From positions 1-32,112 of the forward strand of contig JAPUIH010000028.1 in the NCBI GenBank assembly GCA_027297205.1: DNA of 32,112 bases, in the 5' to 3' direction. The translations under genes and the position numbers were made by a program. Below, in pieces: positions 2,127 through 11,790 of the stretch. Under the pieces are notes generated by a model. The model was not told where the DNA came from. It saw nothing but the letters and a program-made list of their open reading frames with translations, and made no database searches. How positions within the stretch are numbered: the first letter of the stretch is position 1; every line of letters starts with the position of its first letter. The stretch is from SAR324 cluster bacterium. GTDB lineage: Bacteria; SAR324; JACQKK01.

Positions 2127-2975
2127 TCATCGGCCCTTCTTCAGCCCCTCGTTGAGAGAGCCGGAGCGGAAGCCCTTCAGGTCCACGGTGACATAGCGGT
2201 AGCCCAACGCTTCCAGTTCACGCACGATCTGCTCGCGCTGTGGCAACAGCCGCTCAATATCCTCAACGGGCACTTCGATCCGCGCCACATCGCCGTGATG
2301 ACGAACCCGCAATTGCGCGAATCCCATCCGCTTCAGGACCTGTTCCGCCTGTTCAATTTGGGAGAGCATGGGCAATGTAATCGCCAATCCATAGGGGACG
2401 CGGCTGGACAGGCAGGCGGCCTGAGGCTTGCGCGCATTGCGCAGCCCCAAGTGCGCCGCCAGCCGTCGGATATCCGTTTTTTGGAAATAGTACTCCGCCA
2501 GGGGCGAGCGCACCTTGTATTCCGCTGCGGCCTGCAGGCCCGGACGGTGGTCGCCCAGATCGTCCAGGTTGGTGCCATTGATGATGACCGCAAAGCCCTC
2601 CTGGCCGGCCAAGGCCGCCAGGTCGGCATACAGCGTCGATTTGCAAAAATAGCAGCGGTTGACCGGGTTGGCCAGATAGGAGGGGTTGCTTGTCTCGGCG
2701 GTGCGGATTACGCGATGCGCCATGCCCCAGTCCGCCGCCAGGCTCTCGGTGAGCGCATAGTCATCCCGGGTCAGGCTCTCCGAACAGGAAGTCACGGCCA
2801 GCGCACTTTTACCCAGAACGCTGTGCGAAAGATACGCCACCAGCGAGCTGTCCACACCACCGGAAAAGGCGGTGATGACACTGCCCATGGCCTTAATTGC
2901 TTCCTGGAGCGCCAGGTACTTGCGTTCCAATTCGGAGTCCAGGGGGACGGTCTGTGTTTGCTGCAAGGCTTCCAC
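2127..2975 (-). CDS. larE: LarE-like ATP-dependent sacrificial sulfur transferase (start codon uncertain; ORF extends to 3149)
   Basis: PP-loop SGGVDSSLVAY, RCYFCKSTLY, NGTNLDDLGDHRPGLQAAAE, KPQAACLSSRVPYG. GTG at 2975 precedes EALQQTQTVPLDSELERKYLALQ. Confidence 0.87.
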   Translation of the reverse strand: MEALQQTQTVPLDSELERKYLALQEAIKAMGSVITAFSGGVDSSLVAYLSHSVLGKSALAVTSCSESLTRDDYALTESLAADWGMAHRVIRTAETSNPSYLANPVNRCYFCKSTLYADLAALAGQEGFAVIINGTNLDDLGDHRPGLQAAAEYKVRSPLAEYYFQKTDIRRLAAHLGLRNARKPQAACLSSRVPYGLAITLPMLSQIEQAEQVLKRMGFAQLRVRHHGDVARIEVPVEDIERLLPQREQIVRELEALGYRYVTVDLKGFRSGSLNEGLKKGR

Positions 2976-3108
2976 GGGGCTCGGCGATAGGAAGATTTGA
3001 ATGCGATCGGGCAGGCAGTTGCCTGACCACCGTTTATACGGGCGCCGTGGTTGCGGTGTCAATCGCGGACGTGCAATTCCGGAGGCTACAGGCCGCGGGC
3101 AGGGAGGC

Positions 3109-3795
3109 TCAGGAATCAGGCTCGGCCGCGGGCTCTGTCTCGGATTCAATCTCGTCGAGTTTTATTTGAGCATCCGCCGCTGACACTTCCCCACTTTCCA
3201 CACCTTGCTGAATATCCTTCAATTCCTCGCCCCGCACTTCCGCCGCCATTTCGCCATCGGCCACGGTCTCCTTTGTGGCCATAAAATCCGCCTCGTCTTT
3301 GAGATCGGAATTTTTCTTGAGAAACGAGGATTTAATTTCAAGATAATTCTTGAACAGTCTCGTGTCTCGCAGGGTCTGCACCAAATTTTTGAAGGTCACC
3401 ACCGCTTGTTGGTCGCTCGTGTCAACCGTATTCTTGGTCAATTTATCGATGGAACTCTTCAGCTCTTTGCCACCCTCGAATTCTTCCACCTTCAGGAAGG
3501 CATCAATCAGGCTTCCCGTATTGTGCAAGCGGCGATTGGTGCGTTCCACGAACTGGGGTGGCGTCAGCGCGTGCTGTGTCGATTTGGCGAAATGGCGGAT
3601 ATCCGCATTGTTAAATTTAAAAGCCCCCGACTGCTCCAGTTGCCGAAACTGCACCGCCTTGATTCCTGGAGGCATTTTTTCGATTACCTCGAGCTTCTCG
3701 TTGAGTTCCTTGAAATGCTCGATCAAATCGTCGTTATCCGCAGTCAGCAACTCCAGCGTGGCCCTTACCGCCGCGATTTCGTCAACATTTTCCAT
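3109..3795 (-). CDS. Hypothetical protein, charged/helical, no recognised domain
   Basis: Intact 228-aa ORF on the strand of larE, start MENVDEIAAVRATLELL; acidic C-terminus; no motif recognised. Confidence 0.6.
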   Translation of the reverse strand: MENVDEIAAVRATLELLTADNDDLIEHFKELNEKLEVIEKMPPGIKAVQFRQLEQSGAFKFNNADIRHFAKSTQHALTPPQFVERTNRRLHNTGSLIDAFLKVEEFEGGKELKSSIDKLTKNTVDTSDQQAVVTFKNLVQTLRDTRLFKNYLEIKSSFLKKNSDLKDEADFMATKETVADGEMAAEVRGEELKDIQQGVESGEVSAADAQIKLDEIESETEPAAEPDS

Positions 3796-3934: not shown

Positions 3935-4324
3935 ATGTCGAACCGTTGGATTGTGCTCGCCGCCCTGTTGGCTGCGCTCGGCGTGGCCATGGGCGCCTTT
4001 GGCGCACATGTGTTGAAGTTGTGGCTGCCCTTGCAGAAGATGACCATCTTCGAAACGGCTGTGCGTTATCACTTGTTTCATACCTTGGCGCTGCTGGCCT
4101 GCGGAGTGCTGATAACCACCCACCCCGCGCACGCAGCAGGCCTGCGTTGGGTGGCTGGATTGCTTACCGCGGGAATCGTGCTGTTCTCCGGTGGATTGTA
4201 CGCCGCCGCGCTCAGCGACCTGGATCCATTCATGTGGGCCACGCCCTTTGGGGGGCTGGCCTGGATTGCCGCCTGGCTGCTGCTGGCCTATCTGTTTTGG
4301 CGAAAGCCCGGCCGCGGCGCCTAA
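3935..4324 (+). CDS. DUF423 family small membrane protein (YgdD-like)
   Basis: MSNRWIVLAALLAALGVAMGAFGAHVLK...FETAVRYHLFHTLALL...FSGGLYAAAL; four hydrophobic helices; CTGGAGG ribosome-binding site before ATG 3935. Confidence 0.88.
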   Translation: MSNRWIVLAALLAALGVAMGAFGAHVLKLWLPLQKMTIFETAVRYHLFHTLALLACGVLITTHPAHAAGLRWVAGLLTAGIVLFSGGLYAAALSDLDPFMWATPFGGLAWIAAWLLLAYLFWRKPGRGA

Positions 4325-5976
4325 CGGGACAGCCAGTGATGGGACTGCGGGGCGCGGTTCGCCTCCGGAGCGATGGGCACGTTAATCAGCGCCGGTTCCC
4401 GCTTGTCCAGGGCTTCCTGGAGGGCCTGTGCCAATTGCTCGGGCGTATCGCAATGGTATCCCGTGCCTCCGAAAGCCTCGATCACTTTGTCGTAGCGGCT
4501 GCCGGGTGTGTACACGTTAACCGGCGGTGGCTCGTCCTCCGGCCACCCGGCCACTCCTCGGCCGATGCCGTTATTGGCGAATATAATCCATACGATGGGC
4601 AACTTGTAGCGCACCGCCACTTCCACTTCCATGCCGTCGAAGCCGAAAGCGCCATCGCCCATCAGTGCCACTACCGGCTTTTCCGGGTGCACAACCGCCG
4701 CAGCCAGGGCAAATCCACAGCCCACGCCCATGGTGCCCCATGTGCCCGCGTCCAGGCGGTGCCGGGGCAGATAATTTTCGATCACGGAGCGGCTGATGTC
4801 CATGGTGTTGGAGCCCTCCGCGATGAACAGTGTCTCTCTGGGCAGCAGCTTTTGAATTTCCGACAACGGACGGTAAAAGCCCATGGGCACCTCGCTGGAT
4901 TCCAGGGCGGGCTGCAATTCATTCTTTTTCTTCTCCACTTCCCCTGCCAGTTCCTTCAGCCAGGGAGCCTTGGGGTCCAGGCGCCAGGGCTCTTCCTCCA
5001 GCCGTGCCGCCATCTGCCCCAACACCGCCTTGAGGTCTCCTGCGATGCCGATCGCTGCCGGCACATTGGTGCTCAACTCTTCCGGCGCAATGTCAATCTG
5101 CACCACCTTCACGTCCGGCCGGTAGCGCGGTTCAAGGCCGAAATGCATAATCCAGTTGAAGCGCGCCCCGGCCAGCAGAATCGTGTCCGCATTGGCCAGG
5201 GCATAGCTGCGTGCCGCCGCCACGGACGCTGGATGATCGTCGGGAACGACCCCTTTTCCCATTGGGGTGGGCAGGAAAGGAATTCCAGTCTGCTCCAGCA
5301 ACCGGATCAGTTCCGGCGCCGCATCCGCCCATGCGGCCCCCTTGCCTACGATGGCCAAGGGCCGCTCCGCCTCGCGCAGCGCGCGCAATGCCTCGTCCAC
5401 CAATGCCAGGCTGCTTCCTTCGCGGGGAGGTTCCGCCAATAGCGGAGGGTGTTTGATCAAGCCCTCGTCCACGACTCCGTCGATCACGTCCGCCGGCAGG
5501 TCCAGATAGGTGGCGCCCGGCCTGCCGTACCATGCCTGGCGCAGGCCCTGCTCGATCAGGCGCGGGATTTCCTCCACGCGCCTGGCCTGGGCTACCCATT
5601 TGCAGAATGGCCGCGCCGCTTCCATCTGGGGGGCCTCCTGAAATGCGCCGCGATTCGCGAGAGGCGAATCCGAGGAGCCACTGATAACCAGCAGGGGCCA
5701 GCAGTTGGCTTGGGCGTTTCCCATCGCGGTGATGGCGTTGGTCATTCCGGGCCCCGAAACGGTGAGGGCCACGCCGGGCCGTCTCCGCAGATAGCCGGCA
5801 CCCTGGGCGGCAAAACAGGCGGCCTGCTCATGACGGGTTCCGATGAAGCGAATCCCCGCCTCCTGGATGCGATGTCCCACCTCCACCACGGGATAACCCA
5901 CCAGGCCGAACACTTCCTCGACCCCTTGCCGCTTGAGGCACTGGGCAATCAGCACCGCTCCTTTGATCTCCGCCAT
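4321..5976 (-). CDS. ThDP-dependent 2-hydroxyacyl-CoA lyase / oxalyl-CoA decarboxylase family enzyme
   Basis: ThDP-enzyme fold motifs; HACL/OXC-type FIAEGSNTMDISRSVIENYLPRHRLDAGTWGTMGVGCGFALAAA and GDGAFGFDGMEVEVAVRYKLPIVWIIFANNGIGRG. Confidence 0.87.
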   Translation of the reverse strand: MAEIKGAVLIAQCLKRQGVEEVFGLVGYPVVEVGHRIQEAGIRFIGTRHEQAACFAAQGAGYLRRRPGVALTVSGPGMTNAITAMGNAQANCWPLLVISGSSDSPLANRGAFQEAPQMEAARPFCKWVAQARRVEEIPRLIEQGLRQAWYGRPGATYLDLPADVIDGVVDEGLIKHPPLLAEPPREGSSLALVDEALRALREAERPLAIVGKGAAWADAAPELIRLLEQTGIPFLPTPMGKGVVPDDHPASVAAARSYALANADTILLAGARFNWIMHFGLEPRYRPDVKVVQIDIAPEELSTNVPAAIGIAGDLKAVLGQMAARLEEEPWRLDPKAPWLKELAGEVEKKKNELQPALESSEVPMGFYRPLSEIQKLLPRETLFIAEGSNTMDISRSVIENYLPRHRLDAGTWGTMGVGCGFALAAAVVHPEKPVVALMGDGAFGFDGMEVEVAVRYKLPIVWIIFANNGIGRGVAGWPEDEPPPVNVYTPGSRYDKVIEAFGGTGYHCDTPEQLAQALQEALDKREPALINVPIAPEANRAPQSHHWLSR

Positions 5977-7554: not shown

Positions 7555-8508
7555 TCACAATTTCAGTTCGGCCAGCAGGTTTCTCCAGCCTGCAATTTCC
7601 CGGGATGGCTGGAACATGGGGGCCAGCCTAGCCATGTGCCGCTGCAGCGCTCTCAAGAAGGCAGCATCGTCTTCGGCGCGCGTCAGCAGTTCCCGCAGTT
7701 CTCCCGTGTCACCCACCCTGAAATAACCAGGATAGCTGTCACCCAGCAGGCCCACCGTGCCTGGAATTTTCGAGGCCAGGACGGGCAATCCCGCGGCGCC
7801 CGCCTCCGAGATCACATTCGCGCCACCTTCCATGCGGGAAGACAGCACCATCAACCTGCATGCGGCCAGCAGCCTCCGTACCCGCCAACGGGGCAATTCC
7901 CCCAGCCAGCTGTAACGGGAATTCGTCTGCGCTTCCCGTTTGGCCTTGCGTTCCATCTGCGGATTTAGGGCTTTCCCTGCGTGCAGCACGCGGATGCGTG
8001 AAGAGGCGGGCAATCCCCGCACGGCCATTGCGGCCCGGAACGGGTCTTTCTCCTCGCGCAAATGGCCGACCACACACACTGGAAAGCCCGTGTGCGGGGG
8101 CTTGACCCCTGCTGGAGGGGCCTGGGCAGATTGCACAATCACGCGCAGTTTACCCCGCACCGCGCGGGGCAACTCGCGGCTGGCCAAGGGCTGCAGGGCA
8201 ACCAACCGGGTGGCCATCCGCAACGACGCCCGGGCCTCCTCGCTGTTTTGCATGTCCCTGTACAGATCGGTGCCTGTCAAGGCCAGCACCAGCGGCGCCC
8301 TGGGATAGTGATCCCGGTAGGCGCGCAAGGCGGCATGACTGCGCCGGGCGTGGAGGGCGATCATCAGATCGCAGCGCTGGGCGTCATAGGTCTGGGCCAG
8401 GGTCACACGATGGCCCAGACCCTCCAGGATGCCGCGCCAGCGGAGGGCCGTAACCCGGTTGCCATGACGGGTGCGGGGCGGGGCGGGCGTAATCATGATG
8501 ATTTTCAT
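7555..8508 (-). CDS. senB: TIGR04348-like glycosyltransferase; candidate selenosugar synthase SenB
   Basis: MKIIMITPAPPRTRHGNRVTALRWRGILEGLGHRV...YDAQRCDLMIALHARRSHAALRAYRDHYP...LALTGTDLYRD...SSRMEGGANVISEAGAAGLPVLASKIPG; immediately downstream of an EgtB/SenA-like gene. Confidence 0.83.
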   Translation of the reverse strand: MKIIMITPAPPRTRHGNRVTALRWRGILEGLGHRVTLAQTYDAQRCDLMIALHARRSHAALRAYRDHYPRAPLVLALTGTDLYRDMQNSEEARASLRMATRLVALQPLASRELPRAVRGKLRVIVQSAQAPPAGVKPPHTGFPVCVVGHLREEKDPFRAAMAVRGLPASSRIRVLHAGKALNPQMERKAKREAQTNSRYSWLGELPRWRVRRLLAACRLMVLSSRMEGGANVISEAGAAGLPVLASKIPGTVGLLGDSYPGYFRVGDTGELRELLTRAEDDAAFLRALQRHMARLAPMFQPSREIAGWRNLLAELKL

Positions 8509-8590
8509 GGAGCGTGCCCTGGACGAGGAAACCGCCCCGCTGGCGGGGCTGAGAGGGAGCCGGAATGACTGGGCACGGGTCTGGCCGCCG

Positions 8591-9916
8591 CTACTGGGAG
8601 CAGGTGCGGAATCCGGCGAACACGTCGCTCCGATCCGGCATGAAGAAATTGCGCCAGGTGTTGCGTATCATGCGGGAGCGGGTGGCCCAGCTGCCGCCTC
8701 GCAGCACTTTGTGATACCCAAACCAGGGTGCGGAATACTCCCGGTAGGGATCGACCACAAAGCCGGGATAGGGATAGAAGGCGTCGGCGGTCCATTCCCA
8801 CACATTACCCAGCATTTGCCGGCAGCCATGGGCGCTATCTCCATCCGGCAAGGCCGCTACGTCCGCCGGTGCGGTGGAATGACAATCCAGGTTGGCGTGT
8901 TGGGGTGTGGGCGCCGCATCACCCCAGGGATAGCGGCGCTTTTCGCCAAGCAGGGAGCCGTTGGCGGCGGGCACCGTGGCCGCGGCCAGCTCCCACTCGG
9001 CCTCTGTGGGCAGTCTGCGTCCGGCCCAATTGCAATAGGCCTCCGCTTCAAACCAGTTGACGTGCAGCGCCGGCTGATGCTCCCGTATCGGCTCCCAGCG
9101 GTCGAAGCGGCGGCAGCGCCAGCCGCCCCCCCTGCCGGGACGCCAGTAAACTGGGTGCTTCGCGCGGGAATTGCCCAGCCAGAGCCGGCCCCGGATGCTC
9201 CAGAATTGTTCGCTGCGGTAACCCCCCGCTTCCACGAACTGAGCAAATTCGCCATTGGTGACAGCTGCGCGGGCGATGTGGAACGGCGCTACGTCCACGG
9301 GATGCGCCCATTTCTCGTTGTCGAAAACGTAGGGCATGTCCTGGCTGCCGCCCAGCATATAGCCTTGCGCGCCGGGCACCTCCACATCGCCCGGCAAGGG
9401 CCCCGCCGGTTCCGCTTCCGGCGGCGGTTCCACAGCCCTGGCCTGCAAGGTTGGAGCGGAATAGCGCTGGGTCTGGCGGTCATGGATCATGGCCTCGTCG
9501 TGCATGTCCTCATGAAACACAGACAGCCTGTTGTAGTAAGTGGCCTCCTCACCAAGTGCCGTGTCGCGCACGGTCTCCAACACGTTCTCCAATACCTCCG
9601 CCGCATAAGCGAGCGTACTTTCCCGCCCGGGCATGGCAAGGTCCCAGCGGATTTCGTGGGCCACTTCAAAGGAATCGTAGAGTGCGTCCACCTCCGGCCG
9701 CAAGGTGGGACGTCCGTTCAGGTGGCGCAGCACCCATCTTTCCTGGAACCAGGCGATATGGCCTACGTGCCAGATCATGGGATTTACCGTGGCCACTATT
9801 TTCCCAAGCAACTGTTCATCGGTCAGGTCTTCCACCAAATGGAAAGTGAAGTCCCGAGCGTCGCGCACCCAACGCGTCAGTTCCTCTTCCGCCGCGGCTT
9901 TGCAGGCCAAATCCAT
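8591..9916 (-). CDS. senA: EgtB-like DinB + formylglycine-generating-enzyme domain protein; candidate selenoneine synthase SenA
   Basis: DinB part NPMIWHVGHIAWFQERW and FHEDMHDEAM (HxxxH metal motif); FGE part LPTEAEWELAAAT...MLGNVWEWTADAFYPYPGF...KVLRGGSWATRSRMIRNTWRNFFMPDRSDVFAGFRTC. Start MDLACKAAAEEEL at 9916 preferred; the ORF extends to 9994. Confidence 0.83.
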   Translation of the reverse strand: MDLACKAAAEEELTRWVRDARDFTFHLVEDLTDEQLLGKIVATVNPMIWHVGHIAWFQERWVLRHLNGRPTLRPEVDALYDSFEVAHEIRWDLAMPGRESTLAYAAEVLENVLETVRDTALGEEATYYNRLSVFHEDMHDEAMIHDRQTQRYSAPTLQARAVEPPPEAEPAGPLPGDVEVPGAQGYMLGGSQDMPYVFDNEKWAHPVDVAPFHIARAAVTNGEFAQFVEAGGYRSEQFWSIRGRLWLGNSRAKHPVYWRPGRGGGWRCRRFDRWEPIREHQPALHVNWFEAEAYCNWAGRRLPTEAEWELAAATVPAANGSLLGEKRRYPWGDAAPTPQHANLDCHSTAPADVAALPDGDSAHGCRQMLGNVWEWTADAFYPYPGFVVDPYREYSAPWFGYHKVLRGGSWATRSRMIRNTWRNFFMPDRSDVFAGFRTCSQ

Positions 9917-10009
9917 CGGTATTCCATCCTGCGGGATCCAGGGGCGCCCCGTGGCGGGTTTCGCCAAAAGTTTCGTGGCCGGGCGGAGCACCACCCGTAC
10001 CGCCGCTTA

Positions 10010-11386
10010 TTACAAAGGTTTCAGATCACCCAGCAAAGTTGGCAGGAGTTCCGAAACCGTGGGATGGATGTGTACCGCGCGGGTCACCGTCGTATAGGGC
10101 GCCTTGGCATACATCAGATCCAGCAGGGAGTGGGCTATCTCGTCGCCCCCGATACCCAGCAAGGCCGCACCCAGTATCTCCTTACTCTCCGCATCCACCA
10201 CCACTTTCATAAAGCCCTGGGTTTCGCCGCGTTCCCGGGCACGGGCCACTCGCTCCATCTGCATTGTCCCCACCAGGGCCTTGCGTCCCGATTCCCGCAC
10301 CTGCTGCTCCGTCATGCCGGCCCGCCCCAGCGGGGGGTCGATAAAAAGACCGTAGCAGATGATGCGGTCCGCCACGCTGCGCGGGTCGTTGTCGAACAGA
10401 TTGGCCGCCACGATCTCATAATCGTTGTAGGAAGTATGGGTAAAAGCGCCCAGGCCATTGCAATCTCCGATGGCCCAGATGCCTTCTACGTTGGTGCGCA
10501 ACTGGTTGTCCACCGTGATCATTCCCTGGGGATTGGTGGCCACCCCGGCCTTGTCGAGGCCGAGGTCATCGGTATTGGGGCGGCGTCCTACGGCAACCAG
10601 CAGATGGGAGCCGGCAAGGTCTTCCTCGCCGCCCGCGCCATTCAGTTTGACCGAAATGCCGCCGCTCTGCTGCCCGGCTTCCGCCAGGGTGGTGTCAAGC
10701 CGGATGTCGATGCCCTCATTTTCCAGTATTTTCTTGATGGCATCGGAGATATCTTCATCTTCCCGTGGGATCAGGCGGGGTCCTTGTTCCACCACCGTTA
10801 CCTTGCTCCCGAAGCGCCGGTATATCTGGGAGAATTCCAGGCCGATATAGCTGCCGCCGAGCACAATCAGGTGCTCGGGCACCGCTTCCAATTCCAGCAT
10901 GCTGGAGTTGGTGAGGTACTTGATACTGTCCAGACCTGGCACCGGCGGCACCATGGCCCGCGCACCCACGTTAATGAAAATCTTATCAGCTTCGAGCACC
11001 TCTCCGTTCACACTTACCGTATTTGGGCTTTCCAGGCGGCCATGGCCCTGGAAAATCGTACCGTTGTCCAGATTCTTCATCCAGTTGGTGACGCCGGTGT
11101 TGGAACGCTCCACAATTTCGTCTTTGCGGGCCTTGACCCGCTTCATGTCCACCCGGATCGGCGAGTCGATCATGACGCCGAATTCCGCGCCTCGGTTGGC
11201 CATGTATGCTGCCCTGGCGCTAGCCACCAAGGTTTTTGTGGGAATTCAACCTGTATTGACACAGGTGCCGCCGAATTTATCTCTCTCGATGACAGCCACC
11301 TGCATGCCCTCCTGGCTCAGGCGGGATGCCAGAGAGGGGCCCGACTGGCCGGTGCCGATTACGATTGCGTCGAACTTGGTTGTCAT
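10010..11386 (-). CDS. Selenocysteine-containing FAD/NAD(P)-dependent pyridine nucleotide-disulfide oxidoreductase (mercuric reductase/dihydrolipoamide dehydrogenase superfamily); UGA at 11248-11246 read as Sec
   Basis: MTTKFDAIVIGTGQSGPSLASRLSQEGMQVAVIERDKFGGTCVNTG[TGA]IPTKTLVASARAAYMANRG... continues in the same frame to HIHPTVSELLPTLLGDLKPL. FAD GxGxxG motif, NAD motif VLGGSYIGLEFSQIYRRFGSKVTVVE, C-terminal HxxxxxE present. AAAGGAG ribosome-binding site before ATG 11386. ORF track shows only the part after the UGA. Confidence 0.86.
11212..11232 (-). promoter_or_regulatory. Candidate bacterial SECIS hairpin
   Basis: 5'-CCUUGGUG GCUAG CGCCAGGG-3': 8 contiguous pairs (two G.U), 5-nt apical loop starting with G, loop G 22 nt after the in-frame UGA. 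Confidence 0.72.
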
Positions 11387-11409
11387 ATTGCTCCTTTCTT
11401 CGCCCCTCA

Positions 11410-11435
11410 GGCCGGCTGCCTAGGCAGGACCGGCC
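11410..11435 (-). promoter_or_regulatory. 5'-leader hairpin of the Sec-reductase/sen cluster
   Basis: Minus strand GGCCGG-UC-CUGC-CUAG-GCAG-CCGGCC: 6-bp lower stem, 2-nt 5' bulge, 4-bp upper stem, 4-nt loop; 24 nt upstream of ATG 11386. Confidence 0.45.
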
Positions 11436-11790
11436 GGCGTGGCGGGGGCGCTTGTTGATCGATTCCCTTCCCCTGTCCGGTACCGGAGTTGAAGCACAAA
11501 TGAGGGTGCCGAACTGGAATTTGAGACGTTAAACTAATTTGATGCCGGTACAGTTACCACGAAATTTTTTGGAAGTCGCGGCTTTATTGACCCCATGGCG
11601 GACGGGACAGCACATGGCGCGGGTTGACCGGTGGCAGCACCCCCCGCGGCGTGGTTTGAGGGCCGAATTGCTTGTGTTCCAGGAGTATTACCTATATTAA
11701 TTTGAGTTCTGTAACCACAACCACGCCGCGCTGAATTCAAATCCGTGAGGCGATCAAAAAATACGGGCGGACTCTCCAGGATAGCCGGTT

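Follow-up and report, generated by a model that had tools for sequence, protein, structure and literature searches.

The reductase gene on the minus strand of a contig from a SAR324 cluster bacterium raises the question of how an in-frame TGA at its redox centre is read: as a stop, as an error in the sequence or as selenocysteine (Sec). The gene lies within the window, by which is meant the whole stretch of 32,112 nucleotides that was analysed. Directly downstream of it on the same strand are senA and senB, which adjoin each other. The features that bear on the question are as follows.

10010..11386, minus strand: class I flavoprotein disulfide reductase of 458 aa, predicted to contain Sec in a CxxxxU redox centre (C42, U47)
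11391..11397, minus strand: ribosome-binding site AAAGGAG, 4 nt 5' of the ATG, read directly
11246..11248, minus strand: in-frame TGA, predicted Sec codon 47, at the flavin-proximal (charge-transfer) Cys position
11212..11232, minus strand: bSECIS-like hairpin CCTTGGTG-GCTAG-CGCCAGGG with a perfect 8-bp stem, statistically borderline
8591..9994, minus strand: senA, selenoneine synthase (NF041186, 484.5 bits against a cut-off of 420), the next gene downstream
7555..8508, minus strand: senB, selenosugar synthase (TIGR04348, 401.9 bits against a cut-off of 300)

The reductase frame starts at ATG 11386, with AAAGGAG-CAAT immediately before it, and ends with TAA at 10012-10010. Its sole internal stop is the TGA at 11248-11246, which is codon 47. 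The recoded product has an FAD-binding N-terminus, the motif GGTCVNTG[U]IPTK, in which the TGA occupies the position of the second cysteine, and a C-terminal HPTVSE motif. The initial annotation had claimed that the minus-strand frame from 11386 to 10010 is open except for one TGA, that this UGA sits on the second active-site cysteine and that automated callers would pick TTG 11230 as the start. Re-reading has confirmed the open frame, which gives 458 aa when recoded, and the aligned orthologues carry Cys at the position of the UGA. Standard ORF calling indeed starts at TTG 11230, producing 406 aa in which the FAD-binding N-terminus is lost. An open frame of 995 aa on the plus strand (8471-11458) runs antisense to both the reductase gene and senA, and is probably a by-product of opposite-strand coding. 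A scan for sigma-70 promoters gave no match. Elsewhere in the window, the minus strand encodes a ThDP enzyme near oxalyl-CoA decarboxylase (4321-5976; NF006721, 553 bits, just below the cut-off of 557) and LarE, an ATP-dependent sacrificial sulfur transferase (2127-3149; 308.8 bits, cut-off 150), whose start codon is uncertain.

Judged by its sequence, the reductase is a member of the uncharacterised PRK06370 'FAD-containing oxidoreductase' family. The recoded protein scores 767 bits against NF004992 (cut-off 629) over residues 1-458, and Pfam Pyr_redox_2 and Pyr_redox_dim are both above cut-off. It shares the FAD/NAD(P) and dimerisation domains and the His-Pro...Glu signature with the class I pyridine nucleotide-disulfide reductases, with the second Cys replaced by UGA. 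The best match among solved structures by sequence is 6kgy (E 5e-83), which we take to be RclA. 6kgy has both centre cysteines, and its HPSMSE aligns with HPTVSE of the reductase. The recoded protein falls under the curated cut-offs for RclA itself (NF040477, 364.9 bits against 740), for dihydrolipoyl dehydrogenase (TIGR01350, 366.5 bits against 408.8) and for glutathione reductase, and these identities were rejected. The score for MerA is likewise too low (TIGR02053, 334.9 bits against 454.45) and, because the C-terminus, LLGDLKPL, lacks a Cys pair, the protein is not a mercuric reductase. The superfamily placement made earlier, a disulfide reductase with the redox motif, stands, but by the curated cut-offs its family is PRK06370 rather than the mercuric, lipoamide or glutathione enzymes.

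The reading of codon 47 has been compared across 101 non-duplicate orthologues with at least 56% identity, collected from a collection scan and genome searches. The codon is TGC or TGT in 98 of them and TGA in the remaining three, and no other in-frame stop is present in any of the 101. The TGA carriers are the window gene, L044 in genome G008, which belongs to the window's family and bears the record title SAR324 cluster bacterium, as well as L110 in genome G058, an Acidobacteria MAG; L021 and L044 come from one genome and are counted as one case. All three genomes are many-contig draft assemblies, two of them titled MAG, and the two other TGA proteins are 62-70% identical to that of the window. 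If stops were placed uniformly, the chance of two further stops matching the first would be about 5e-6, and about 0.004 when only the 16 codons that a single base change turns into TGA are allowed. The Sec form is rare, a point against the Sec reading: exact-pattern searches for Sec in this motif were positive in 2 of 52 genomes of the window's phylum, in 1 of 399 genomes of the class of G058 and in none of 395 genomes in the phylum of G063. Between the window gene and L044, identity is 31/46 over codons 1-46 and 292/411 over the remainder, indicating that the N-terminal part is equally conserved. Codon differences of the reductase gene are concentrated at third positions.

The source genome (3.24 Mb in 400 contigs, 91% complete) encodes selA (500 bits), selB (360 bits) and selD (380 bits), all over curated thresholds, as well as a tRNA-Sec with a UCA anticodon (61 bits, over threshold). 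Its selD (L010 2463-1399, minus; G000:C365) has an in-frame TGA in GG[U]AAKLSP. Given that this is a known Sec site, selD is most likely a second gene of the source genome in which UGA means Sec. Each of the three TGA genomes has a SelB that scores above cut-off; SelB is absent in 8 of 25 genomes checked, including Cupriavidus and Pandoraea, which have the Cys form. The initial annotation had proposed Sec insertion at the UGA, naming Cys-containing and further UGA-containing orthologues together with selA, selB, selC and selD as support and neutral decay of the frame as counterevidence. All four genes are present, 98 Cys orthologues align at the UGA, L044/G008 and L110/G058 carry the same codon, and no decay is seen, codons 1-46 being conserved. 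Such comparative evidence argues strongly that the reductase gene encodes a selenoprotein with Sec at codon 47, which we consider very probable.

The TGA could instead be a nonsense mutation that has left a recent pseudogene, or a truncated enzyme made only from TTG 11230. Such a truncated ORF is what standard gene calling gives, and a stray in-frame stop is found in the lineage at a non-conserved Arg position of SenB in genome G006. However, the TGA recurs at this one active-site codon in three genomes, with no other occurrence among the 101 orthologues, the N-terminal FAD-binding part is still conserved, and all three TGA genomes encode SelB, making a nonsense mutation very unlikely. Still less likely is readthrough of the UGA by a near-cognate Trp or Cys tRNA, or its reassignment, with no involvement of selenium. 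Cys orthologues predominate, and insertion of Cys would yield an ordinary enzyme; but TGA is the ordinary stop for about half of the listed window genes, by which genome-wide reassignment was rejected, and both the complete Sec machinery and the TGA at the canonical Sec site of selD speak against either route. A sequencing or assembly error from TGC or TGT to TGA would be a one-base difference in many-contig draft assemblies. But the same codon would have to be hit separately in each of three assemblies, whose proteins share only 62-70% identity with that of the window, and such an error can practically be dismissed.

Returning to Sec insertion, the sequence just downstream of the UGA is suggestive of a bSECIS element in the window and L110 genes, with a geometry that matches the source-genome selD. 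The window hairpin has a 5-nt loop beginning with G, and the apical loop is 21 nt past the UGA. In the hairpin of L110 (6-bp stem, loop GGTCGCG) and that of selD (6-bp stem, loop GGTC) the loop is 17 nt past the UGA, and L044 has no simple hairpin of the window/L110 type after its UGA. In a strict simple-hairpin test, 78 of 2000 synonymous shuffles were as good as the window hairpin and 114 of 2000 as good as that of L110, and the two ranked 6th and 12th, respectively, among the 101 orthologues. This test was the third version tried, and its borderline result calls for caution; the first tests, where any fold counted, gave no enrichment and no significance. The codon GGT directly precedes the UGA (window 11249-11251) in 3/3 TGA genes vs 11/98 Cys orthologues (p about 0.001, post hoc), and CCC is found two codons past the UGA in all three TGA genes. 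The GGT is possibly a context preference of the UGA, a reading that is likewise post hoc.

In the tree of the orthologues, L110 falls in a supported group made up mostly of Acidobacteria, and the window gene is grouped with a Cys gene from the same family. A single clade for the three TGA genes is rejected (AU p = 0.029), which suggests that the Cys-to-Sec exchange probably occurred at least twice. Such a scattered distribution of Sec and Cys is typical of selenoprotein families, and repeated nonsense mutations that all hit a single codon are no credible alternative.

In the proposed mechanism, SelB and tRNA-Sec would decode the UGA of codon 47 as selenocysteine to produce a homodimeric disulfide reductase dependent on FAD and NAD(P)H. 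Its C42-x4-U47 redox centre would replace the C-x4-C disulfide and form a selenenylsulfide when oxidised. Homology with RclA, lipoamide dehydrogenase and glutathione reductase, in a superfamily where these roles are established, predicts that residue 47 is the charge-transfer residue next to the flavin and that C42 exchanges with the substrate. Electrons would pass from NAD(P)H to FAD and from there, via U47, to the selenenylsulfide, and C42 would in turn reduce an oxidised small thiol or selenol or a thiol oxidant. We infer that the substrate may be a low-molecular-weight disulfide or a selenium compound connected with the adjacent selenoneine genes.

Selenoneine is a selenium antioxidant; in its pathway, senA encodes selenoneine synthase and senB encodes selenosugar synthase (PMC10891094). 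The initial annotation did not name these two downstream genes. The true start of the window senA probably lies inside the listed GTG ORF. Other genomes of the same family also retain senA and senB as a pair. Among the genomes examined, the reductase gene is found beside the pair in the source genome only, and a role for the reductase in selenoneine metabolism is therefore put forward as a hypothesis. The reductase is not a conserved member of the selenoneine cluster in G001, G005 and G008, where its orthologue and senB are on different contigs, and a conserved role in a selenoneine operon was rejected because senA and senB travel without the reductase in relatives. It is conceivable, though rather unlikely, that the reductase is an enzyme of the selenoneine operon dedicated to selenium, which keeps selenoneine or the selenol intermediates of its biosynthesis reduced, and that the early UGA, through translational polarity, makes senA and senB expression depend on the Sec supply. 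If so, the selenoneine operon would be made only when selenium is available. The SenB of G006 (L127 1495-2439, G006:C220) contains one in-frame TGA. It was considered as a second new selenoprotein and rejected, the TGA being at a non-conserved position where the window SenB has Arg; mutation or error is more likely than Sec.

No CxxxxU flavoprotein is among the 119 prokaryotic selenoprotein families inventoried in 2026 (PMC13188914). The same inventory contains a CoA-disulfide-reductase-like flavoprotein with UGxP, as well as a subtype of sulfide:quinone reductase and, with UxxU, a 'putative mercuric reductase' that binds metal (PMC13188914). A natural precedent for Sec in the primary CxxxxC centre was not found in the open-access literature. 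The reductase described here is a predicted new selenoprotein family inside a known enzyme superfamily; it would add a family missing from the 2026 inventory, with a recurrent Cys/Sec exchange at one codon. Gene callers drop the FAD-binding N-terminus of such Sec genes. For the flavin-coupled Cys-x4-Cys disulfide, the long-standing model enzymes are glutathione reductase, lipoamide dehydrogenase and mercuric reductase, and a natural flavin-proximal Sec would permit a direct test of the effect of selenium on electron flow between flavin and thiol.

Animal thioredoxin reductase and thioredoxin-glutathione reductase are Sec-containing enzymes of the same superfamily. In these animal enzymes Sec sits in a GCUG extension at the C-terminus, and the flavin-proximal CVNVGC pair remains Cys-Cys. 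In contrast, the window protein terminates in LLGDLKPL, and its predicted Sec is within the primary centre. It resembles PRK06370-type proteins (NF004992, NF004990), with which it shares motifs and whose full-length homologues are 57-71% identical, but codon 47 encodes Cys in 98 of the 101 examined members and is UGA in the window gene. A further close system is RclA / hypothiocyanous acid reductase (Har family, PMC11107202), represented by 6kgy, whose CxxxxC centre and C-terminal HP..SE align with those of the window protein; however, 6kgy has two centre cysteines, and the window protein reaches less than half of the RclA cut-off. The CoA-disulfide reductase-like FAD oxidoreductase (TIGR03385; PMC13188914) is, like the window protein, a predicted flavin-enzyme selenoprotein, but it belongs to another family and has a UGxP motif instead of a Cys-x4-Cys centre.
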